Below are positions 44,982 through 58,314 of a DNA stretch of 60,169 nt, piece by piece. How positions within the stretch are numbered: position 1 is the first letter of the stretch; every line of letters begins with the position of its first letter. Made by a program: the position numbers and the translations under genes. The stretch is from NCBI GenBank assembly GCA_937124585.1, contig CAKZKT010000030.1:1-60169 (forward strand), written 5' to 3'. This DNA is from an uncultured Anaerolineae bacterium. GTDB taxonomy: Bacteria > Chloroflexota > Anaerolineae > CG2-30-64-16. A model generated the notes under the pieces. It searched no databases, was not told the DNA's origin, and saw only the letters and a list, made by a program, of their open reading frames with translations.

Positions 44982-45241
44982 GCCCCTGACACGGCGCCAG
45001 CGGCAGACGCCCCCGTGCCCCCGCTGCCGGGCAACGTGCCTGTAACCGGATTGCACTGCTGCAGCAGCCGGCTGATGCTTTTCCACGTCTCCTCGCCGCG
45101 GCGATAGCCTGCGGACCCGGCCGGCGCCAGGACCAGGAGCGCCTCCGCGACGTCCTGCGCCTGGCGCAACGTTTGGCGTTCTTCTGCGCCGATGGCGCAC
45201 TCAATGAAACGGAAACTTGTGATACCCCGAGTTGGGTCCAA
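44978..45241 (-). CDS. Unrecognised small protein coupled to the MNIO gene
   Basis: Up to 87 residues if translation starts at TTG 45241 inside the MNIO gene; an ATT at 45205 that overlaps the MNIO stop codon is the only nearer start-like codon. Third positions are strongly G/C in this frame past 45201, whereas the two other frames look non-coding. Composition: a helical middle (EERQTLRQAQDVAEALLVLAP), SISRLLQQCNPVTG, and a Gly/Ala/Ser tail. Cysteines lie at about residues 15 and 67. No family recognised. Confidence 0.5.
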   Translation of the reverse strand: MDPTRGITSFRFIECAIGAEERQTLRQAQDVAEALLVLAPAGSAGYRRGEETWKSISRLLQQCNPVTGTLPGSGGTGASAAGAVSGA

Positions 45242-46700
45242 ACGTGACGCTCTCAGGGCCGTTGCCGGTCAGCATGATCTCTAGATCAATCCTTTCCTGT
45301 TCGCCGGCAAACAATTCGCCACCTGCGAGCGCCTCAAAGACGGGTACGGGATCGAAGTCGAAGCGCACCACCCGCTGCTTCCCGTCAACTAGGGAAGCGG
45401 CATTAGCGCGTTCGAACGCCAACACCTGGTTCAGGTACGGGATCTCCAGGCGTTGCGCGGCGAGATAGCCAGCAAAAGCCTCTGCCTCGGCCGACGCGTA
45501 TCCTTGCGGAGGAACTTGCGCCCAGCACTCCCCCATCAGGGCGCGAACGGCGTCCGTGCCGAGGGTCAGGAGGAGCAGCCGCATGGACATGGGCAACACC
45601 CGGACAAGCATGGAAGCACGGAACTCGCGAATCATTGCGGCGACCAGCAACACACCCTGGTCGCCGGCCAGCTCACGGCTCAGCGTTTCGGCGCCGGGCG
45701 TCCGGCCGATGACCAGGTTGCCTAGCGCGCGTTCCCACATCGCCGGAGAGGGGCCTTCGTCAAAAGATACCGGCATTGCCGTGCGACTGGATCGCACGGG
45801 CAGCGGCTCGTCCACGGCTGTACCGCGTAGTGACCAAAGCTCATGCAACCGTTCCATTTGGGCATAGATCACAGCCGCGCCTGCGGTTTCCACGAAGGAA
45901 GGGAAGATCTCGAAGATGATCGCTTTGAGATTGGGCAGACGCGAAACGATGATCCGCGAGGCTTCGAACAGCGGGTCGGGGATAGCTCCTGAGTGGGCAT
46001 CTATCCAGAAGCCATCCAGCTCCATGCCGCCGGCCAGGTGAATTTCCCAGACCCGTTCCAGCGGGATCTCGGCCAGAAACTCGGCGACCGTCTGGCGGCC
46101 GTTCAGAGCGTTGGCGAAGATGTTGTGCAGATCGAGCAGCAGCCCACAGTCGGCGTTGCGCACTACAGAACCAACGAACTGGCCGTCTGGCATCTCGTCG
46201 GAGCGCCTGCGCAGGTAGTTCACACCCGTCTCGACGGCGATCGGCACGCCCAGCCCCATTTGCAAATCCCGAACCGATGTACAGGCAACTGCCACCCCTT
46301 CAGGGGTCTGGCGGGGCGGCAGGAAGAAGCCTGTACGAAACTCAGGTGTTGAGTTGAAGCTGAGATGATCGCTCGCCCACGGCGACTGTAGCTTCTCGAT
46401 AGCTGCACGCAGCAGGGCCAACTGACCCGGATCGGGCCGGACTGTGCCCCCAACCGGAGTACCGACGCTATGCACCAGCTTCCGCATCGGATAATCCACC
46501 AGCCGCGCCAGGGTGCGCTCGTCGGGCCGGTAGGCTGCCGACTCTCCCGGCACTTCGACCCAGCTCGTCTGCGGCTCGAATTCGAGCACATCGAAGAGCT
46601 CGGGCCTGGCCTCCAGGAGGGGCTCGACCTCCGACGCGAAGGTGATACCCACTCCCAACTCAGGGAGATGTGAGTTGTCGTGCTGATAGGATAGCGACAT
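45201..46700 (-). CDS. MNIO (DUF692) oxidative enzyme fused to a DUF2063-like partner domain
   Basis: 499 residues against about 280-300 for a usual DUF692 enzyme. ATG at 46700 with GAGGGAC upstream. Residues about 12-300 are the TIM-barrel multinuclear iron enzyme: GVGITF, ASDHLSF (H112), AVETGVNYL (E157), LLLDLHNIFANALN (D190, H192, N193), WEIHLAGG (H221), IDAHSGAIPD (D234, H236) and FEIFP (E264) match the iron-ligand pattern. Residues about 315-480 resemble DUF2063 partner proteins (RALMGECWAQV, FAGYLAAQRLEIPYLNQVLAFERANAA). Family knowledge: MNIOs oxidise cysteine or other residues of precursor peptides with such a partner. The fusion call and the substrate are inferences. Confidence 0.8.
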   Translation of the reverse strand: MSLSYQHDNSHLPELGVGITFASEVEPLLEARPELFDVLEFEPQTSWVEVPGESAAYRPDERTLARLVDYPMRKLVHSVGTPVGGTVRPDPGQLALLRAAIEKLQSPWASDHLSFNSTPEFRTGFFLPPRQTPEGVAVACTSVRDLQMGLGVPIAVETGVNYLRRRSDEMPDGQFVGSVVRNADCGLLLDLHNIFANALNGRQTVAEFLAEIPLERVWEIHLAGGMELDGFWIDAHSGAIPDPLFEASRIIVSRLPNLKAIIFEIFPSFVETAGAAVIYAQMERLHELWSLRGTAVDEPLPVRSSRTAMPVSFDEGPSPAMWERALGNLVIGRTPGAETLSRELAGDQGVLLVAAMIREFRASMLVRVLPMSMRLLLLTLGTDAVRALMGECWAQVPPQGYASAEAEAFAGYLAAQRLEIPYLNQVLAFERANAASLVDGKQRVVRFDFDPVPVFEALAGGELFAGEQERIDLEIMLTGNGPESVTFGPNSGYHKFPFH

Positions 46701-46735
46701 GGTGTCCCTCACTGCGTGCAAGGTGATGCTCCACT

Positions 46736-47263
46736 TCAAGAGATCAATGGATCGTTGGTTCGCGCCACAAGTGGGAACTGCGCAAAACCAATGGCATCGA
46801 AGGATGCCAGCATTTCTTTTAGTTGTGGGTTTTCGGCAAGGTTTTCAGCAGGACTTTTTGCCCCGGGTTCCGCCGCAAAGAACTTGTCCATAACTTCTTT
46901 TCGGCCTACCATCAGGGCAACCCTGGCCGGTCGTACAAGCTCTTCTGCAAAAACGGTGTGGCCGGGCCGGATCCTACCGACGTTGATAACACCGCCATTG
47001 ACTCCTTCGGCCAACACCAGGTCATCGTCAAGCCTGGTCAGTCGCTCCAGCTTGAACCCATTGCCGATAATCGTACCGCTGCCTCCGAAGTCTGCACTTT
47101 CCTTGACGAAGATCAACGGAAAGCCACTGCAGCACTCCGGGCAGCCCAAGTCACTGACAGTCCTCTTCAACGCTTCCAAAATGCTGACCACAGGATCCGG
47201 CGCCGAGGCCGAGAACCGAGATGAAAAGCGAGGATTGGTTGAAAGCGTTAGTTCGAAGTCCAT
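46736..47263 (-). CDS. Unrecognised 175-residue protein with CPECC motif, candidate MNIO substrate
   Basis: Ideal AGGAGG five bases before the ATG. Three cysteines, C41, C44 and C45, cluster in GCPECCSGFPL; there are no others. The remainder is mixed alpha/beta (VINVGRIRPGHTVFAEELVRPARVALMVGRKEVMDKFF). It ends 35 bases before the MNIO start, so the two are almost certainly co-transcribed. MNIO enzymes usually modify cysteine-bearing precursor proteins encoded next to them, so this is a candidate substrate, although the motif is central rather than C-terminal. A metal-binding partner protein is the alternative. Confidence 0.75.
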   Translation of the reverse strand: MDFELTLSTNPRFSSRFSASAPDPVVSILEALKRTVSDLGCPECCSGFPLIFVKESADFGGSGTIIGNGFKLERLTRLDDDLVLAEGVNGGVINVGRIRPGHTVFAEELVRPARVALMVGRKEVMDKFFAAEPGAKSPAENLAENPQLKEMLASFDAIGFAQFPLVARTNDPLIS

Positions 47264-47684: not shown

Positions 47685-49304
47685 TCACCCCACCGGCGCC
47701 TTCAACCGTGTGATCGGGTACGGAGCGACGCTCATCTCGCTGGATCGAAACCGCGAGCACACGTTCAGCCGCATGGCCGCGCCGCCGTGGGGCAGACGGT
47801 AGAGGGTGAAGACCCCTTCCTGGCTCGGCTTGCCATCCAGCAGGGCGATCTGTTTGCGCTCGCGCAGGCTGTTGTAGTAGCCGATGAGCTGCTGCAGATA
47901 TTCGCCTTCGCCGCCGGGCGCCTCGGGGATCCGGAAGTGCGCCACCAGTTGGCGCCGCTCGTTGAACACCAGCGTGCCGCCGAAATCCACCGGAATCGGC
48001 CCCCACTCCGGGATGAGCAGGGCTTCGATGGGATAGGTGTACTCGATGATGGTCTCCTTGATCGGCTGCGCGCCCCTGGAGGTGACGCCGGACTGATCCA
48101 CGAAGTTGATGGTGGGGAAGTTCAGCCGCACCATGGTGTTCGAGGGGATGCCCAGGTCGTCGCGGTGGCGATAGATGAACTCGTACAACTCGCGCGGCTC
48201 CTGGGCCCGGTTCCATTTCAGGCTGAGGGCCGGCGCGGTCGTCAGCTCCTCCGGATCGGTGACGATGCCCCGCTCGGCAAAAACCTGCTTGATCACCTGC
48301 CGGTAGCCGTGCTCGTCTTCGGGGAACGCTTGCGCGTCTGCTGCGATCAACGCCTGGCCGTAAGTGCGGAAGAAGGCCGCAGTGGGCGGCATGTAGTTGA
48401 TGGCGCGGAACGCGATGCGGCGCAGGTGCCGCGTGGCCTCGATCAGCGCCTCGGCGTCGGTCAGCGCCTCGTCCGTGCGGCGGCGGTTGATCTCGTAGAA
48501 TGCCACCAGGATCTGGTACATGGTGGCAGTCAGCAGCACCGAAAAGTCGTGGATCTCGGTGCCCGCAGCCTCACCATAGGTGATGGGGTCGCCGGCGTAG
48601 CGCAGGAAGTAACGGCCCGGCCCATAGAGGCCGTAGCCGAACTCCTCGGCCATGAGCGAGGCGATGTTGGGCCGATTCAGGTCGCCGCCCGTCGCCTCCA
48701 TCACGCGCGCCACCACCTCCGGGAAGGTCAGCGCTGAGAACATCGCGCACAGGTCGCCGAATGCCTCGTGGAACGCGCCCGTTTCCACCGGGGCGAAGCC
48801 GAAGTAGAAGGGTTTCAGGCCATCCAGCGCCGCGTGGCCCAGCTCGTGCGCCACGATATCGTGCGAGAGGGCGGTAAACACTTTGCCGACGCGGAACGCG
48901 ATATCGAAGTAGAAGAACGCCAGCGCGCCCTCATCGCGCGAGTAGTAAGCGTTGCGGTCTTGCAGGTAGTGGGGATGGATGGCCAGCTGGGGGCCAAAAG
49001 CCCAATGCACCTGCCGGCCGATGGCGCTCTCGATCATCTCCAGGGTGCGGCGGGCAACGGCGAAGGCGTTGACCTGGTGCGTGCGCACGTCGTCCGGGCC
49101 CAGCAGCTCGAACGCGTTCTGATCCGGCAGGAAGCGCGCCGGCTGGTAGACTGCTCCCGCGCTGTGGTCCACGTCGTGGACGATGAACTGCGCGTCGCGC
49201 GGGCCGCTCTCCAGGTGGACGTTGGGAATGGCGATGGTCACCCGCTCCGGCGTGGACAGCGGGTCCTGTGCCCAGATCTGGACTTCAACGGGGTCTTGGC
49301 TCAT
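47685..49304 (-). CDS. Gluzincin (M4-like) metalloprotease without signal peptide
   Basis: 539 residues from the ATG at 49304 with AAAGGAG eleven bases upstream. Zinc motif H153-E-L-G-H157 in DIVAHELGHAALDG and the third ligand E180 in TGAFHEAFGDL resemble the HExxH and GxxNEAxSD motifs of thermolysin-like M4 peptidases. No signal peptide or membrane helix is seen, so it is cytoplasmic or exported by an unusual path. C-terminal 250 residues are of unclear fold. It has its own SARP-box-like promoter and lies 178 bases upstream of the small-ORF/MNIO cassette on the same strand, so it might process those products; this is speculative. Confidence 0.82.
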   Translation of the reverse strand: MSQDPVEVQIWAQDPLSTPERVTIAIPNVHLESGPRDAQFIVHDVDHSAGAVYQPARFLPDQNAFELLGPDDVRTHQVNAFAVARRTLEMIESAIGRQVHWAFGPQLAIHPHYLQDRNAYYSRDEGALAFFYFDIAFRVGKVFTALSHDIVAHELGHAALDGLKPFYFGFAPVETGAFHEAFGDLCAMFSALTFPEVVARVMEATGGDLNRPNIASLMAEEFGYGLYGPGRYFLRYAGDPITYGEAAGTEIHDFSVLLTATMYQILVAFYEINRRRTDEALTDAEALIEATRHLRRIAFRAINYMPPTAAFFRTYGQALIAADAQAFPEDEHGYRQVIKQVFAERGIVTDPEELTTAPALSLKWNRAQEPRELYEFIYRHRDDLGIPSNTMVRLNFPTINFVDQSGVTSRGAQPIKETIIEYTYPIEALLIPEWGPIPVDFGGTLVFNERRQLVAHFRIPEAPGGEGEYLQQLIGYYNSLRERKQIALLDGKPSQEGVFTLYRLPHGGAAMRLNVCSRFRSSEMSVAPYPITRLKAPVG

Positions 49305-49353: not shown

Positions 49354-49403
49354 AATATATCACATTTACCGTTTAAAAAATCGTTTAATGGAAAACTTCA
49401 CAA
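49354..49403 (-). promoter_or_regulatory. SARP-box-like promoter of the protease gene
   Basis: Minus strand: AAACGAT (49380-49386), 5-bp spacer, AAACGGT (49368-49374), 8 bp, extended -10 TGA-TATATT (hexamer 49354-49359). The block 49368-49403 is identical, apart from one extra A, to 54433-54467. Confidence 0.7.
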
Positions 49404-49429
49404 AAAATTCATATTACAAGCTGCGAAGG

Positions 49430-50251
49430 TTACTGTCCCGTGACATCGTTCCATCGCACATATCGGATCCGCTCATACTGCATCTCGGCCGCGCCTGTAT
49501 AGTTGCGCGCGTACAGGATCCACCCGATGCCCTGGTCCAGCCAGGTGGTGTCCTGCACCGTGGCGACCTGCTGGCCGTTGATCGTCAGCAGGATGTCGGC
49601 GCCGCGGCGCTCGACCTGCATACGGTTGAACTGGCTGCCCGGCAGGATCGCGTCGGAAGAGGTCCACGGGATGAGGGGCACGCCGCCCTTCCAGTCGCCG
49701 TCGTCCACGCGGTACAGGCTGTAGCTGCGCGTGTCGGGGTTGATGCCGAACAGGTAGCCGCCGCCCTGGAGCAGGCTGCGCACGTCGAAGCCGATCCGGT
49801 AGTCGCCGTCGCCCGCGGTCTTGGCGATCTCGGCCGAGATCGCATAGTGCCGGGCGCCGTTGGTGCCGCAGCAGGCGACGATGGTATGGCTGATGTTGAA
49901 GCGCCGGATGATCAGGCCGTTGGTGGGGCTGCACTCGACGTCGTCGCGGTCGGATGGCCCGAGGGGGAACCACCCGCAGGTGGGGTTGAGCACCTGGCTG
50001 GGCGTGGCGGTCGGTGTCGGGGTAGGGGTGGGCGGGGGCGGGCCCATGATCACCGGCAGGAACGCGAACTTCGTCGCCTGCGGTGTCACGGTGTCGAAGG
50101 CGCGGCTCAGGTGGCCGGCGGTGGGCGTGCCAGCGGGTGCTGCGGTGGATACAGCCGCGACGCCCGTGGCCGGCTGGGCGAGAAGGACGCCGAACAGCAG
50201 GCTGACGGACACGAAGCCGGCAATCATAAACAACATGCCTTGTGAGCGCAT
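49430..50251 (-). CDS. Exported protein with Thr/Pro linker and LamG/DUF1080-like domain
   Basis: 273 residues. Signal segment 1-30, then KFAFLPVIMG followed by a PTPTPTPTATP linker (about 65-85), then a beta-sandwich region (about 90-270) with cysteine pair CCG and repeats of the concanavalin-like type: YRIGFDVRSLLQGGGYLFGINP, YSLYRVDDGDW, RMQVERRGADILLTINGQQVATVQD. It resembles LamG/3-keto-disaccharide hydrolase domains, which bind or cleave sugars. Third gene of the beta-helix operon. Confidence 0.7.
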   Translation of the reverse strand: MRSQGMLFMIAGFVSVSLLFGVLLAQPATGVAAVSTAAPAGTPTAGHLSRAFDTVTPQATKFAFLPVIMGPPPPTPTPTPTATPSQVLNPTCGWFPLGPSDRDDVECSPTNGLIIRRFNISHTIVACCGTNGARHYAISAEIAKTAGDGDYRIGFDVRSLLQGGGYLFGINPDTRSYSLYRVDDGDWKGGVPLIPWTSSDAILPGSQFNRMQVERRGADILLTINGQQVATVQDTTWLDQGIGWILYARNYTGAAEMQYERIRYVRWNDVTGQ

Positions 50252-50269
50252 GGTCCCCAAGTGCTCCTG

Positions 50270-50770
50270 TCACCCGCGCCCGCGCGCCGGCCGGCGGAAG
50301 TAGTAGTGCGTGCTGGCGCCGACCGGCCCGTCGTAGACCCCCTCCGCGGCGGGCCGCTCGATCACTTGCACCAGCCGCCAGCCGTCCGCGCCCAACTGCT
50401 TGAAGCCCCGGTAGTGGCTGTCGAGCAGCTCCGAGTGCGGGACGCCCTGGTCGTCCAGCCAGTCGAGATACCAGATGATGGCCGAGCCTGGCGTCCCCTC
50501 ATCGGCCTCCTGGCTGACCATCAGACAGTGCCGTTGCGCATGGTCTTCGTTCATCGTGTCATCTCCTGAGAATGGGATTGGGTTAACCGGGATGTGAGGC
50601 TGGGGCGCGGGCGCGTCCGCCAGGAACGCCAGCAGCGCCGCCCACGCCCGGAAGTGCCGCGTCTCGCCGCTGAGCACGTGCGTGGCCTGCCCGCGCCAGC
50701 CCGCTCCGGCCCCCGGCTCGGGCCAGAGGCGGACGGTGAAGAGGTGGGAGTCCGGGCGGGCGGCGTTCAT
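50270..50770 (-). CDS. Unrecognised two-part 166-residue protein
   Basis: The ATG is seven bases after the beta-helix gene's stop. Residues 1-55 (FTVRLWPEPGAGAGWRGQATHVLSGETRHF, then ALLAFLADA) resemble small conserved domains I know from other Chloroflexota proteins but have no named function. An internal ATG at 50554 with its own AGGAGA site could start a separate 94-residue protein (MNEDHAQRHCLMVSQEADEG onward) in the same frame, so this may be one fused gene or two overlapping products. Confidence 0.6.
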   Translation of the reverse strand: MNAARPDSHLFTVRLWPEPGAGAGWRGQATHVLSGETRHFRAWAALLAFLADAPAPQPHIPVNPIPFSGDDTMNEDHAQRHCLMVSQEADEGTPGSAIIWYLDWLDDQGVPHSELLDSHYRGFKQLGADGWRLVQVIERPAAEGVYDGPVGASTHYYFRRPARGRG

Positions 50771-50777
50771 CGGGTCG

Positions 50778-53700
50778 CTATCTCATGATCGTCGGCAGGT
50801 AGACAAAGTTGTCATAAGATGGAGGCGGCCCCTGCGTGGCGGTCGGCGTTGGCGTGCGCGTGAGCGTCGGTGTGGGCGACGGGGTGGCTGTGGCGGTCGG
50901 CGTCACGGTCGTCACGGTGCAGGGCGGGTCAATCGCCAGCCGGACATCATCCAGCATGAACACGCTGGGGTCGGAGAGGGCGTCGTTGGCCACGCGGAAG
51001 CGCAGCGTGACCTGCTGGCCGGCGTAGGCGGTGAGCGGGACGCTGGCCTCGGTCCAGCCGGCGGTGTTGCCCGACTGGCACAGTGGATGTGTCTTGACGG
51101 TTGTCCCGTTGACCTGCACGGCCGCAGTGTCGAAGCTGCAGTCGGTCTCCGGCGAGGATGTGTAGACCCAGTACTTGAGCAACGTCGTGACGCCGGGCGG
51201 CACCAGCACCGACTGGGACAGCTGGCTCACTTCGCCGTTGGCCACACCCATGAGCGCCGCCCAACTGCCGCCGTGGGGCGGGCGGTAGGCGGACAGCTCG
51301 GCCGCCGGCCGGATCAGGTGCGGGAGTTTGGTTGAGCTCACGGTCCAGTCGCCGTTGGCGCCGGCCTCGAAGCCGCCGTTGCGCACCAGGTCGCTGTCGC
51401 GCAGCACCGACAGGGTCACGTTGACCGCTTGCGGGCTGCCGCCCGCGCCGGTCGCTGCAAAGGTGACCGCACCGGTGTAGGTCCCGGCCGCCAGGCCGGC
51501 CTGGTTGACCGTGACCGCCGGGCTGGCCGGCGCGGCGCCCGCAGTGGGGCTGACGCTGAGCCAGGGTTGGTTCTTGGTTGCGCTCCAGCTCAAGGTTCCG
51601 ACGCCGGTGTTGGTGACGGCGAGGGGTTGGCTCGGCGGCGGCGCGGCGCAGGCGACCGCGGTGAAGGCCAGGCTCACGGGCGCGACGTTCAGGTAGGGGA
51701 TGGCCGGCTGCCACTCGAACGCGCCGATGTCGCACGCGGGGCCTTGCGGCCGGGTGACCCCGCGTTGGTCGGTGGGGGGACAGTTGGCCGCGCTGCCGGC
51801 GTCAATGGCCGGGCTGCCGTCGAGCAGGGCGTGGGTCAGCGTAGGGCCGCCGTTGGCCGCCAGCGGGCCGAGCTTGGCGTTCACTTTGACCCGATCACCG
51901 GGGGCGGTGAAAATGCACGCACCGTCATCTGAAAGATTGTGGCCGAGGGAAGCATTTGCCGGCAGCGCGGCGCAGTTGTCGCCGTCGTTGGCCGCCAGCA
52001 GGACGTTGACCATTTCCAACACAATCGTGTCGGACCCGGTGCCCCAGTTGACGGAGCCGAAAGGACACTCGGCCGCCTCTACCTCATCTCGGTCGCGTGT
52101 TTCCACGTTGACCCGGATGCCGCCTGCACCCGTCGGCGCGACATTCGCGGCGATGGTTGTGTTGTCCAGCAGCATCTTGCCGCCGTAACCGTATTGGAAG
52201 ATATTGCCATCTTTGGCGCCGCCCTGGCACAGCTTGTACACCGGCCCCCCGTGGCTGATGCCGGCGCTCTCGGCCGCCTGGTTGCCGCTGATGGTGCTGT
52301 TGCGAATCCTGACCGTCGGCCCGCCGCGGTACGCTTGAAGCAGCGAAATGCCCCCGCCCTTCTTGACCGCGCTGTTGCCGGCAATTAGGCTCTCCGAGAT
52401 CTCCGACTCGGTCACGGCCAGGCCGCCGCCGTTGGCTGCGCGGTTGCCGGTGATCGTGCTGCTGATCACCTGGACGTTACCTGCCAGGCCGCCGCCGTCG
52501 CCGCCCGCAGTATTGTCCTTCACGAGGCCTTGGCTCACGATGAGGTTGCCGTAGATGTAAGCGCCACCGCCCTTGCCGGTCGCATTGTTGCCCTGCAGGG
52601 TCACTCCGGTTGCCGTGATCATGTCGTTGCCGATGAAGCCGCCACCGTCCCCGGCAGTCGCGGTGTTGCTCAAGAATTGCGTGTTGCGAATCGTATTCTG
52701 ATAGGTGATCATGCCACCGCCGCCACCTGAGAGCCCGCCGCCGGTCTCGGCTGAGTTGCCGACGAAAATGCTCTCTGTGATGGTGTAAGGGGCAAGCCAG
52801 ATCCACACGCCGCCGCCGGCCGCCTGACTGCAGGCTGCCGTATCCACCACCGCGCGGTTGTTGCGAATAGTTGTGTTTGTGATGAGAAGAGGGCTTTTAC
52901 TGTAGTGGCTAATCCCCGCGCCAAACGGCGCGCCACAGCCGCTCGGTGTAATCGTGTGACGATGCGCGACGTTATCACTGATCGTGCTGTCCACGAAAGC
53001 GATGCTCCCGCTGCCATAGACCTCGATGCCGCCGCCCGATGGCGGATTGTCCTCACGAGCAACCTGATTTTGTACGAGTGTCGTGCGCGTCAACGTCACA
53101 GGGACGGCGGTATCAATGAACATGCCGCCCCCGCTTCCTGCACTGTTTTGGGAGAAGCTACTGTCCCGGATTGTGACTGCGGCTGCGGCGGGATTACCAT
53201 TCCCTGCATTGCTATAGAGATTCAGCCCGCCTCCACTCCTTCCATCTGTGACCCTGTTGTACTCGATGGTGCTGCCGGCGATTTCCAGGCCGGCCTGAGT
53301 TTGTAGCAACAGCCCGCCACCGCCTGCCCCGCCGTAACCGCTCGTTGCCGTGTTGTGGCTGACCACGGTGTCAACGATTTTGGCCTGGCCGTTCACAGAT
53401 GCATAGACGCCGCCACCCATTCCTGCCGTGTGCCCGGTGATGGTGCTGCCCTGCAAGATCAGCGACCCGGTCTCGGCGTATATACCGCCGCCAATTGTGT
53501 TTGTGCCGTTGGTGGTGTTATAGCTGATGGTGCTGGTTAGGACGGTAAGGGTGCCGGTTTGCTTCGAGAAGTAGATACCACCACCGCGGCCTCCGAGGGC
53601 TGTATTGCTCACCACAGTGCTGTCCGCCAGGACCACATCTGTATCATAGGCAGCAAGGCCGCCGCCCCAAAATCCAGCCTGGTTCCGGGAGATCGTGCTG

Positions 53701-54389
53701 GACCGCAGGGTCAGGCTACCCGAAGAGATGTTGATACCGCCGCCATAGCCGGAGCCCTGCCCCCCGCCAGCGGTGTTGAATGAAACCGCGCTGGATTGAA
53801 GCATTAGAGTACCGGAGCGGAAGTCAATACCGCCACCCCCTCCTGCCACAGAGGTGTTGCTCACCACTTCGGTGTGGTTCAGAGCGAGGTCGGCATAGGA
53901 TGCCTCGATACCACCAGACCATGTGCCCTGGCCGCGCTGGATCGTGAGGCCCGCCAGCGTCACGGTGATCGGCGCGCCCTCTTGCCCGTTGATGCTCAAG
54001 ATGCCGAACCCGGCTGACCCGCCATCAATCACGCTGAGGCCCGGCCCCGCGCCGTTGATCGTCGTCAACCCGGTCACATCGAGCGTGCCGAGCGTCAGCA
54101 CGTAGGTCCCCGCCGGCACGGTGATGATGTCCGCGCCGGGGCTGTCGTTGGCCGCGCCGATCGCCTCGCGCAGCGAGCAGTCCGCGTCGCACGCGCCGTC
54201 GGCGGTATCCGCGGTCTTGGTGACCACGAAGGCGCCGGCCTGGGCGAATCCGGCTCCGCTCAGCAGCGCGATGAGCGCGGCGAGCAGGCCGGCGGCGACG
54301 AGCAGCGCCAGCGGGAGGCGGCGCCGGCCGCGGTCGGCCGGGCGGGCCGCGGTCGGCCCGGCTGCGAGATGGGTGAGGTCGGTTGGCAT
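50778..54389 (-). CDS. Large CSLREAI-type right-handed beta-helix surface protein
   Basis: 1,203 residues from the ATG at 54389 (AGGAAAG upstream). N-terminal basic stretch and hydrophobic export segment (about 25-55), [12 protein letters not shown] near 75, then roughly 700 residues of beta-helix repeats with many GGG and NN/NT turns (VVSNTS, ISYNTT, ISGNQA). A BACON-like domain (about 890-960), a carbohydrate-binding-like jelly roll (about 975-1120), a Thr/Pro linker and a terminal FVYLPTIMR follow. Such proteins are exported adhesins or polysaccharide-acting proteins; no catalytic residues could be assigned. First gene of a three-gene operon. Confidence 0.88.
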
Positions 54390-54418
54390 GAGGTCTTTCC
54401 TGATTTTTATTTGGTACA

Positions 54419-54467
54419 AGGATAGCACAAGTACCGTTTAAAAATCGTTTAATGGAAAACTTCACAA
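54419..54467 (-). promoter_or_regulatory. SARP-box-like promoter of the beta-helix operon
   Basis: Minus strand: AAACGAT (54444-54450), 4-bp spacer, AAACGGT (54433-54439), 8 bp, extended -10 TGC-TATCCT (hexamer 54419-54424). The upstream 17 bp TTGTGAAGTTTTCCATT is also shared with the protease promoter. Confidence 0.75.
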
Positions 54468-54519: not shown

Positions 54520-54609
54520 GAAGGCACGGGATAATTGGGAACGAGTGCTTCAGGAGTTGCCACTCATTCGGATCAAGGGTTTGATTTGAGGGACAGGGGA
54601 GAGATGTAC

Positions 54610-55023
54610 ATGAGCAGTCAACCGGGTGAGATGCAGTTGCACGATGTCACTGCTTGTGCTTTCGTCAAGGATTACGTTTTGAGTGTTCGATTTGATGATG
54701 GCTTGGAACGCAGCATTGATTTCGAGCCGATCCTGAGCGGCCCGCTCTTCGGCCCACTGCGCGATCCGAGGTTGTTTCGGCAGGTCAGGGTAGACGCCGA
54801 TCTGGGCACGCTCGTCTGGGCGACAGGGGCGGATATTGACCCGAATGTCCTGCATGACTGGCCCCGGCATGTTGACGCCATCATCCAACGACGCCGGCAA
54901 CGCTGGGCGGCCGACGATAGCCCGGAGGAGGGTCACCGGCAACCCGATCGTGTTGTGTACCAGGTTGCCGAAACGAATCCGGCGCCCTATGAGGCGGACC
55001 GGTTGTCGGACGAAGTAGATTAG
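54610..55023 (+). CDS. DUF2442 domain protein
   Basis: 137 residues from ATG 54610 (GGGGAGAG upstream; ATG 54604 is possible). Residues about 8-85 match DUF2442: LHDVTACAFVKDYVLSVRFDDGLERSIDFEPIL, then LGTLVWATGADIDPNVLHDWP. Usually seen beside DUF4160 as a putative toxin-antitoxin pair, but no DUF4160 gene adjoins. The last 40 residues are polar and unrecognised. Confidence 0.8.
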   Translation: MSSQPGEMQLHDVTACAFVKDYVLSVRFDDGLERSIDFEPILSGPLFGPLRDPRLFRQVRVDADLGTLVWATGADIDPNVLHDWPRHVDAIIQRRRQRWAADDSPEEGHRQPDRVVYQVAETNPAPYEADRLSDEVD

Positions 55024-55092: not shown

Positions 55093-58000
55093 TCACCCCG
55101 CCAGCCACTTCAGCGCGTACCCCACCGCCTGCTCCGTCAACATCGCGGAACCCAAGATCCACGCGGCGCGGAAGCGTTCGTCGCCGAGCTGTTCGCGGAT
55201 GTGCGCCAGCTGCCGGTCGTGATCGGCCTGGGCGTTGGGCGGCAGCGCCGCGGCGATGGCCTGGCGCAGGGCGTCGGCCGCGGCCATGAGCCGCGCGGCC
55301 GGGTCGGGCTGACCCTCGTCCGCCAGCAGGCCCGCGGCGTGATCCAGCACGTCGCTGAGGCCGTGCTGGCTGCCCAGCTCGTTGAACAGCGCCAGGCTTT
55401 CGGCGAAGAGGGCGTGCGCGGCCGGCCGATCCTCGCGCTCGCGGGCCAGCACCGCCAGGCTATCCAGCGTGTAGGCGGCGCCCCAGCGGTCCCCCAGCCG
55501 GCGCTGCATGGCCAGGCTTTCGTCGTTCAGGCCCCGCGCTTCCACGGCCCGGCCCTCCGACCAGGCGATGTCGGCCAGCAGGTGGAGCAGGTAGGCGATG
55601 CCCACCTCGTCGCCCAACCGCCGCCGCAGCGCCAGGCTGGCTTCGATGTGCTGGCGGCCGGTCGCGGGGTCGCCATGCTGCCAGGCTGCCAGCCCCAGGT
55701 TCGCCAGCGAGGTCGCCTCGCCTGCCCGGTCGCCGAGCTCGCAGCAGAGGGCCAGGCTCTCCCGATAGCAGGCCAGCGCCCGCTCGCAGTCCCCTTGCCC
55801 GTGGGCCACAGTCCCCAGCCCGCGCAGGATCATGGCGGTGACCGGCCGGTCGGCGAACGCTTGCGCCACAGTCAAAGCCTGTTCATAGCGCCATCGCGCC
55901 TCGGCGTAGTCCGCCTGATAATAGGCCAGCAGGGCAGCGGCGCGCAACGCGGCGAGCCGGCCCGGCGTCGGCGCCGCAGATGCGGCGGACAACAGCGACC
56001 CGGCCCAATAGCGGCCCTCTTTGAAATGCCCGCGCGTGGCCCAGAAACGGCTCATGTCGCCAACCATGCACAGGCCCATCTCGAGGCAAGTACGATCGGC
56101 CTGGCAATACGCCAGCGCCGCCCGCAAATTGTCGTGTTCCAACTCCAACCGATTGAACCAGCCGGCTTCCGAGACGTCGGGCTGAGGCCGCGCGCCATGC
56201 GCCGCCAATCCGGCATAGTGCGCGCAATGTCTGACCCTGAGCAGCGCGGTCTCGCCTGCCTCGCCCAGTTTGACCGCCGCATACTGTCTCAGGGCATCGT
56301 GGAGGCGAAAGCGGCGCGCAGCCGAGGCCGGTTCGACCTCCAACAGCGATTTGTCCTCCAGGCCGGCCAGGCGTTCCACCAGCCGCTCGGGTGCCAGGCC
56401 TGGGCCGACGCAGACCGCCGTCACAGCTTCCAGGTCGAAGCTGCCTGCGAACACGGCCAGGCGTCGAAACAGGACGCGTTCCTCCGGCGAAAGCAGACGA
56501 TGGCTCCACTCCAGCGCGGCCTCCAGCGTTTGCCGGCGCATCGGCTCATCCGTTCCCTGGCGCGTGAGGAGCAGTAACGCCTCATCCAACCGGCTGACGA
56601 TCTCATCGGGTGACAACGTCCGGATGCGCGAGGCGGCCAGCTCGATGGCAAGCGGCAGGCCGTTCAGCCGTCGGCAGATCTGCGCCACGGCCGCGACGTT
56701 GCTGGCCGTCAACACGAAGGATGGCAGGCTGATCTGGGCCCGTTCCACGAAAAGACGGACGCTCTCGCACGCATCCAGGCCGCGGAGCGGGAGCGCCGGG
56801 CCGGCGAGGCCCGCAAGTGGGTCCGGCGCAGAAGGAGCCGGGGGCGGGACGGCCAAAGGCGGCACGCGCCAGACGACCTCGTCGGCGATGCCCAACGAGC
56901 GCTGGCTGGTGACGAGGATGCACAGTTCGGCGGCGGCCTGGAGCAGTGCCTGCGCCAACAGCCCGACCGAGCCGGCGAGATGTTCGCAGTTGTCCAGCAC
57001 GAGCAACAGGCGCCGGTTCGCCAACCGTTCGGCCAGCGCCTGCAGCGGCGTGCGCCCCGGTCGCTCGCGCGCGCCCAGCGCGGCCGCAATCGTCGGTGCC
57101 ACCAACGCCTCATCGGCGACCGGGCCCAGGTCGGCCCACCACACGCCGTCGGGGAATTCGGCCCGCAGCGCGAAAGCAACGCCCAACGCCAGCCGCGTCT
57201 TGCCCACGCCGCCGGGCCCGGTCAACGTGACCAGGCGGTAGCCGGCCAACAGGCGACGCACCTGCGTCACATCATCGCCGCGGCCGATCAGGGGGGTCAG
57301 CTGCTGCGGCAGATTGTCCGTCGCCGCGCGGCCGGCGTCAGCCGGCGCCAACGCCGCGGCCGCTGCGACTTCGGCGGCCTGAGCCAGCGCCGCCTGATGG
57401 GCCGCCCGCGTTTCGTCGCCAGGAGCCGCGGCCAGCTCGCGGCGCAAAACCACCGCGCAGGCATTGAAAGCGCGCACGACGCCGGTGCGATTGCCGCTCA
57501 GCGCATGCAGCCGCATCAGCCGCCGATACGCGGCTTCGTCCAGGGGGTCGGCGCGGATGAGACGCCGGGCATAGACGATGGCCGCGGCAAAATCGTGCGC
57601 CTCTTCCAGGAGGCTTGCCAGCCGCTCGCAAGCCTGGCCGGCGGCCCGGCTCAGCCGCTCTCGAATCGGCGCGATCCAGTCGTCGTAGCAGTCGGGCAGC
57701 AGGTCGCCGGCGTACGTTTCCATGGCGACGCCCAGCGCGCGCTGTTCTGCACGGGGGTCGCCCGCTTCTCTGGCGGCCCGGGCATCCGCCAGTGTCGCCT
57801 CGAACTCAGCAACAACGAGCGCGATGGCGGCCGAGTCGGGCTGCCAGCGAATGGTGTGGCGGTCGAGCTGCAGCCAGGCCGCGCTTTCCGGCACCACATC
57901 GCGCAGGCGGTGGAGCAGGTTGCGCAGGTTGGAGCGCGCCTGCTCGTCCGAAGTGTCCGGCCAGAAGGCAAAGGCAAGCTGCTGGCGGGAGATCGCCATG

Positions 58001-58131
58001 TGTGGGTGCAGGAGCAGATAGGCGAGGAGATGCTGGAGGCGCGGCTGAGCCAGGCCGGCAATCGTCTGACCCTCTCTGGTAAACCGAAAGCCGCCAAAGA
58101 GATGGACCTTGAATGGGACGCTGGTGTCCAT
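55093..58131 (-). CDS. AfsR-like BTAD/NB-ARC/TPR transcriptional regulator
   Basis: 1,012 residues from ATG 58131; ATG 58149 would give a nearly leaderless message from the promoter upstream. OmpR-type winged helix (about 5-90, FKVHLFGGFRF...PRLQHLLAYLLL...ISRQQLAFAFWP), BTAD helical domain (about 95-235, ARRLIRADPLDEAAYRRLMRLHALSGNR), NB-ARC ATPase with Walker A GPGGVGKTR near 310, and TPRs to the C-terminus. SARP-type regulators bind heptamer direct repeats overlapping the -35. Two matching boxes lie 3.7 and 8.7 kb away, at the beta-helix and protease promoters, making it the candidate activator. Confidence 0.92.
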   Translation of the reverse strand: MDTSVPFKVHLFGGFRFTREGQTIAGLAQPRLQHLLAYLLLHPHMAISRQQLAFAFWPDTSDEQARSNLRNLLHRLRDVVPESAAWLQLDRHTIRWQPDSAAIALVVAEFEATLADARAAREAGDPRAEQRALGVAMETYAGDLLPDCYDDWIAPIRERLSRAAGQACERLASLLEEAHDFAAAIVYARRLIRADPLDEAAYRRLMRLHALSGNRTGVVRAFNACAVVLRRELAAAPGDETRAAHQAALAQAAEVAAAAALAPADAGRAATDNLPQQLTPLIGRGDDVTQVRRLLAGYRLVTLTGPGGVGKTRLALGVAFALRAEFPDGVWWADLGPVADEALVAPTIAAALGARERPGRTPLQALAERLANRRLLLVLDNCEHLAGSVGLLAQALLQAAAELCILVTSQRSLGIADEVVWRVPPLAVPPPAPSAPDPLAGLAGPALPLRGLDACESVRLFVERAQISLPSFVLTASNVAAVAQICRRLNGLPLAIELAASRIRTLSPDEIVSRLDEALLLLTRQGTDEPMRRQTLEAALEWSHRLLSPEERVLFRRLAVFAGSFDLEAVTAVCVGPGLAPERLVERLAGLEDKSLLEVEPASAARRFRLHDALRQYAAVKLGEAGETALLRVRHCAHYAGLAAHGARPQPDVSEAGWFNRLELEHDNLRAALAYCQADRTCLEMGLCMVGDMSRFWATRGHFKEGRYWAGSLLSAASAAPTPGRLAALRAAALLAYYQADYAEARWRYEQALTVAQAFADRPVTAMILRGLGTVAHGQGDCERALACYRESLALCCELGDRAGEATSLANLGLAAWQHGDPATGRQHIEASLALRRRLGDEVGIAYLLHLLADIAWSEGRAVEARGLNDESLAMQRRLGDRWGAAYTLDSLAVLAREREDRPAAHALFAESLALFNELGSQHGLSDVLDHAAGLLADEGQPDPAARLMAAADALRQAIAAALPPNAQADHDRQLAHIREQLGDERFRAAWILGSAMLTEQAVGYALKWLAG

Positions 58132-58159
58132 CCTGCTGATCTGCGGCATGCTTATCATC

Positions 58160-58189
58160 AGTATAGCACGAACAGGCCACAATCGTCAA
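58160..58189 (-). promoter_or_regulatory. Promoter of the AfsR-like gene
   Basis: Minus strand TTGACG (58184-58189), 18 bp, TATACT (58160-58165) preceded by TGC. Confidence 0.75.
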
Positions 58190-58208
58190 AGCAACGGCGC
58201 GAAACACA

Positions 58209-58261
58209 GCGAGGCCTCGGCCGGCCGCACCTGAAAAGGGTGCAACCGGCCGAGGCCTCGC
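58209..58261 (-). terminator. Large hairpin after the nifJ/dihydroorotate dehydrogenase-like unit
   Basis: Perfect 16-bp arms (58209-58224, 58246-58261) with an inner GCACC/GGTGC extension. No T tract, but it separates the upstream transcript from the AfsR-like promoter. Confidence 0.55.
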
Positions 58262-58314
58262 ACGGGCCGGGAAATGGGAGCAATGAAGTATGACGAACGA
58301 GCCGGCCGGGGGGC

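Follow-up and report, generated by a model that had tools for sequence, protein, structure and literature searches.

Two near-identical direct-repeat promoters and a large SARP form a putative local regulon in an uncultured Anaerolineae bacterium

Results

The window, meaning the whole 60,169-nucleotide stretch of DNA that we analyzed, is contig CAKZKT010000030.1 of an uncultured Anaerolineae bacterium (assembly GCA_937124585.1). Its minus strand encodes a large SARP (winged helix, BTAD, NB-ARC-like ATPase and TPR) at 55093..58131, the open frame of which reaches on to a TTG at 58182. Three genes lie on the same strand behind promoter 2 (54419..54467): 50778..54389, for a secreted beta-helix-type protein (CSLREA, choice-of-anchor Q, BACON, MAM-like); 50270..50770, for a 166-residue protein whose N-terminal ~45 residues form a SARP-linked small-protein domain, followed by a weakly DUF4177-like C terminus; and 49430..50260, for a 276-residue secreted protein with weak lectin-like matches. 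Promoter 1 (49354..49403, minus strand) precedes a metallopeptidase-like gene at 47685..49304, also on the minus strand, which bears the motif HELGH...HEAFGDL and sub-threshold M4/M36 matches, and which we refer to as the protease gene. The interval that separates the SARP gene from promoter 2 contains a DUF2442 gene (54535-55023) in the opposite orientation. An MNIO-type RiPP maturase (45201-47263; PF05114, 150 bits) follows the protease gene; its start overlaps the end of a 175-residue ORF with a CPECC motif and no known family, and 45201-47263 may encode a maturase joined to a partner domain, with a candidate substrate.

Domain searches bore out the original prediction of an AfsR-like SARP-domain regulator at 55093-58131. 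The BTAD scored 60 bits against PF03704 (cut-off 22.1) and the C terminus 76 bits against TPR_12, with NB-ARC just below its cut-off (21.6 versus 23.5 bits). The winged helix reached 21.6 bits with Pfam Trans_reg_C, under the cut-off of 26.2; the closest solved structure, AfsR 8hvr (8hvr_I), aligned continuously over winged helix and BTAD (E 1.9e-5). Judged by these matches, the protein qualifies as a predicted large AfsR-like SARP, with a BTAD, an OmpR-type winged helix, a NOD ATPase and TPR. Since the AfsR equivalog model NF053617 gave 91 bits against a cut-off of 1430, it is a relative of AfsR and not AfsR itself. By eye, the region upstream of the SARP gene (58150..58314, minus strand) contains a sigma70-like promoter (TTGACG, 18 bp, TATACT). 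No AAACG box was present in this region, and there is thus no sign that the window SARP regulates itself. Elsewhere, a SARP-like gene start (L132:1-415; G213 C13) is directly preceded by AAACGATCGAAAAACGAT and a -10, and may belong to an autoregulated SARP.

We then compared the two promoter blocks. Read on the minus strand, 49403-49368 and 54467-54433 are the same over 35 bp except for a run of six Ts in the one and five in the other. Local alignment returned the common sequence TTGTGAAGTTTTCCATTAAACGATTTTT(T)AAACGGTA, with a single-base gap in the T run where promoter 1 has the extra T, and a weaker likeness carries on into the TGTGnTAT of the -10. In promoter 1, AAACGAT (49386-49380) and AAACGGT (49374-49368) are separated by TTTTT, a 5-bp spacer and a period of 12, and the extended -10, TATATT (49359-49354), follows 8 bp after the proximal repeat. 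In promoter 2, AAACGAT (54450-54444) and AAACGGT (54439-54433) are separated by TTTT, a 4-bp spacer and a period of 11, and TATCCT (54424-54419) again follows at 8 bp. The near-identity, the repeats and the exact 8-bp distance were therefore all found in both blocks as originally described; the proposed period of about 11 bp held for promoter 2, and promoter 1, at 12, departs from it. The protease ATG (49304) lies 49 nt past the -10 of promoter 1 and the beta-helix ATG (54389) 29 nt past that of promoter 2, each with a Shine-Dalgarno sequence. Inspection by eye found no good -35 hexamer 17 bp upstream of either -10, as expected if the promoters are activator-dependent.

The box as originally described accounts for 18 of the 35 identical bases. 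The remaining identical bases, GAAGTTTTCCATT, occupy the place that a third repeat, GAAACGCTCCAnn, holds in many relatives and are degenerate in the window (49399-49387 in promoter 1 and 54463-54451 in promoter 2, both minus strand). Such a degenerate third repeat could account for the identity left over by the two heptamers.

The block proved to be confined to this locus. Its 19-bp core matched twice in the window, compared to 0.01 matches expected from shuffles, and at up to 3 mismatches these two remained its sole matches in the 4.83-Mb genome, with none for the reversed control; the likeness of the blocks is thus not due to chance. The double heptamer with a spacer of 3-6 bp likewise occurs in this genome solely at these two sites, so that its sole AAACG double boxes are no farther than 9 kb from the window SARP gene. 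The genome-wide scan proposed with the original prediction therefore did not turn up a widespread repeat unlinked to promoters, and a multi-copy mobile element was ruled out as well, the core having no other copy at up to 3 mismatches. Among 59 relatives the core was absent at up to 2 mismatches. A search for TTTTCCATTAAACGnT-N3-6-AAACG in 84,980 species genomes, which may omit records of the window's own genome, gave 8 scattered matches in unrelated, mostly AT-rich bacteria, which we take as chance.

A looser form of the architecture was more widely distributed. The pattern AAACGnT-N4/5-AAACGnT-N8-TAnnnT had 42 matches in 396 relatives compared to 9 for the reversed pattern (counted from the table), and it constitutes a promoter class within the taxonomic class. 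The matches have AAACGCT-TTTG-AAACGCT in common, often with TG ahead of the -10, and many carry a third AAACGCT 12 bp farther upstream. Placing the extended -10 at 7 bp gave ~41 matches compared to ~13 in controls, and the 7-bp spacing does occur (L150). The 12-bp period of promoter 1 is rare in the class (4 of the 42 matches), and promoter 1 may accordingly be weak. The counts across genomes draw largely on draft assemblies, whose short contigs make for fewer visible boxes. Genes behind the related boxes encode a subtilase, a trypsin-PDZ protease, an NmrA-type protein and several secreted proteins, so that the regulons seem to serve the envelope or the extracellular space rather than the making of antibiotics. 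The upstream regions of the protease relatives that we fetched held no such box, indicating that the protease is not a conserved target.

We next examined the genes surrounding these boxes, taking up to 20 kb around 40 box places. For about 14 box sites a BTAD gene lay no more than ~550 bp away, and often the box followed that gene on the same strand after 30-130 bp; with 2-36 BTAD genes per genome, chance adjacency is ~1% or less per box site. A tree built from 67 SARP N termini placed 12 of the 15 box-adjacent SARPs in one clade (support 0.996), which contains the window SARP. The window SARP was sister to L130, a locus whose box likewise ends in AAACGGT and whose first gene encodes a homologue of the 166-residue window protein. 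The clade has the recognition-helix signature QARTNLRNL (QARSNLRNL in the window SARP) and a tryptophan missing from 52 other SARPs. A profile of its winged helix gave left-out members at least 123.7 bits, the left-out window SARP 126.2 and non-members at most 81.2, and the window SARP was the sole protein of its genome to score in this AAACG clade.

Since the loci above were chosen by the AAACG word, only numbers obtained from the protein side are to be read as unbiased. We ran the winged-helix profile on 396 genomes and chose SARPs by protein alone. When a box (with a -10, up to 2 mismatches) was sought no more than 700 bp away, 22 of 63 clade SARPs had one, compared to 2 of 50 SARPs outside the clade and 0.2 when the flanks were shuffled. 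With a single mismatch allowed, the figures were 10 of 63 and 0 of 50 (p 0.002), and a clade SARP was present in 21 of 28 box genomes compared to 49 of 368 others (odds ratio 19.5, p 4e-12), both p values being optimistic because the tests treat genomes as independent and relatives are not. The association was incomplete: 41 of the 63 clade SARPs lacked a box at this distance and threshold, 7 of the 28 box genomes had no clade SARP, and three SARPs outside the clade (L112, L127 and L184) also adjoined exact AAACGnT boxes. Boxes in three genomes (G098, G316 and G377) lay away from any clade SARP gene, indicating that action at a distance occurs.

The heptamer itself followed the type of SARP. 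In a test free of any given word, 7-mer repeats followed by 8 bp and TAnnnT were found at period 11 beside 33 of 123 protein-first SARP genes, compared to 1-8 genes at periods 8-10 and 12-15. The heptamers varied between SARP clades at fixed spacing, and similarity of the SARP N termini correlated with similarity of the heptamers (Mantel r 0.617, 0 of 5000 permutations as high), a correlation to which common ancestry of whole loci contributes. The window's own genome encodes 8 BTAD proteins, and on contigs C56, C127 and C35 it has SARPs with TTTGAGAC, CTTCACG/CTTTACG and CTGACGTT/CTGACGCC repeats ahead of a nearby small-protein gene. With other heptamers alongside these other SARPs, the AAACG word is best assigned to the window SARP.

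The small protein recurred throughout. The N-terminal 45 residues of ORF 50270-50770 define a family (F-x-L/V-R-x-W ... WR ... F ... L) with 71 copies in the fetched loci, mostly adjoining SARP genes; it was also found in other members of the phylum and had no credible match in Pfam or NCBIfam. All 7 copies in the window's genome are on contigs with a BTAD gene, those outside the window being on C56 (two), C127, C35, C34 and C138 of G000. A period-11 SARP box lay upstream on the right strand of 41 of 69 copies, compared to 2 on the opposite strand; other periods from 7 to 21 gave 0-2, and period 23, corresponding to a third repeat, gave 7. The family is a usual first gene behind SARP boxes, and the second gene behind promoter 2 in the window. 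Small protein, SARP and box together look like a standing SARP module.

Discussion

We consider it highly probable that both blocks are SARP-type, activator-dependent promoters that the SARP at 58131-55093 switches on together. Promoter 2 occupies the customary position, immediately behind the SARP gene and on its strand, and promoter 1, 5 kb beyond, repeats it almost exactly with an additional T. In this model, the large SARP would bind the AAACGAT/AAACGGT repeats as a side-by-side pair, the direct repeats would stand in for a -35 element, and the bound protein would hold sigma region 4 and RNA polymerase over the extended -10 positioned 8 bp downstream. Activation would follow receipt of a signal by the ATPase/TPR part, turning on the operon for the beta-helix, small and secreted proteins together with the protease gene. 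A local regulon of the window SARP and the two promoters, as originally proposed, is well supported by sequence comparison, namely by the adjacency of clade and box, the protein-first test, the co-variation of SARP and heptamer, and the other heptamers beside other SARPs; its regulator is the only AAACG-clade SARP of the genome, and the only double boxes lie close to its gene.

Other explanations were weighed against this one. The blocks could be a recombination or duplication scar flanking the 5-kb segment 49404-54432, such that block 2 alone works and block 1 is a by-product. In favor of this are the exact direct repeat of 35 bp that brackets 5 kb of genes, the off-rule period of block 1 and the absence of the box from protease relatives in other genomes. 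Nevertheless, the genome has no further copy of the block, which therefore does not mark an end of some multi-copy element, and block 1 retains its -10, the 8-bp spacing and, 49 nt on, a start codon with a Shine-Dalgarno sequence despite diverged flanks. We regard a scar as unlikely. It is also rather improbable that the promoters are of the proposed type but answer to another regulator, either a different SARP or an OmpR/PhoB-type response regulator encoded elsewhere, with the neighboring SARP a bystander. OmpR-type regulators can also use 11-bp direct repeats, there are 8 BTAD proteins to choose from, and the boxes remote from clade SARP genes indicate action at a distance. Against this, the window SARP stands alone in the AAACG clade within its genome, the other SARPs there adjoin other heptamers, and box and clade co-vary.

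That the resemblance arose by chance, or marks a promoter for an alternative sigma factor instead of an activator site, we find scarcely credible. A single promoter can show repeats by chance, and the identical region starts with a -35-like stretch; yet the concentration of upstream repeats at period 11 and on one strand among the small-protein genes argues against coincidence, and a sigma factor would not explain heptamers that vary by SARP clade at constant spacing.

The results probably, though with less assurance than for activation by the window SARP, have a broader meaning: that SARPs across this class (probably Anaerolineae) and parts of its phylum constitute a standing module, in which a large SARP gene has its cognate repeat promoter alongside and the small protein as its usual first target. 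Each clade would have its own heptamer, and because each would read it at fixed spacing, the SARPs that coexist in one genome (8 in this one, as many as 36 in relatives) could act in parallel without cross-talk. The small protein may be a feedback partner of the SARP, and the window would represent a module of this kind that also takes in secreted proteins and a protease.

The SARP literature that we found concerns actinomycetes and antibiotic clusters, and none in the library searched dealt with SARP binding sites in Chloroflexota-like bacteria. What is new is the extent outside actinomycetes, the non-antibiotic targets and the small-protein family behind SARP boxes; a regulation scheme known from Streptomyces is thereby extended to another bacterial group. 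If correct, the SARP promoter rule is valid beyond actinomycetes, dozens of natural SARP/heptamer pairs are available for working out how the winged helix reads DNA, and the regulons of many uncultured bacteria become predictable from sequence. It also provides a first lead on a common small protein without assigned function.

By analogy, the mode of action would resemble that of known SARP systems, AfsR and PimR. The published rule places the 3' repeat 8 bp from the -10 with 11-bp spacing (PMC10936776; PMC5930380), and in the AfsR structure two SARP protomers sit side by side on 11-bp repeats, touching sigma region 4 and core polymerase (PMC10936776), a model that the window spacing fits. Like AfsR at the afsS promoter (afs box) of Streptomyces coelicolor (PMC10936776), the window has a large SARP with winged helix, BTAD, NOD and TPR, and direct repeats in the -35 region, of 11-bp period at promoter 2, with the 3' repeat 8 bp from the -10. 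It differs in its heptamer, its phylum and its targets, which are a protease and a secreted beta-helix operon instead of afsS or antibiotic genes. PimR at the pimM promoter of Streptomyces natalensis (PMC5930380) shares heptameric direct repeats with 4-bp spacers; its main operator has three repeats and its second tolerates an off-rule spacer, so that both three heptamers and irregular spacing are found in known SARP operators. In contrast to the window, however, the PimR heptamer is CGGCAAG, PimR lies within an antibiotic cluster and has a main operator clear of the -35, whereas the third repeat of the window is 12 bp upstream and degenerate.
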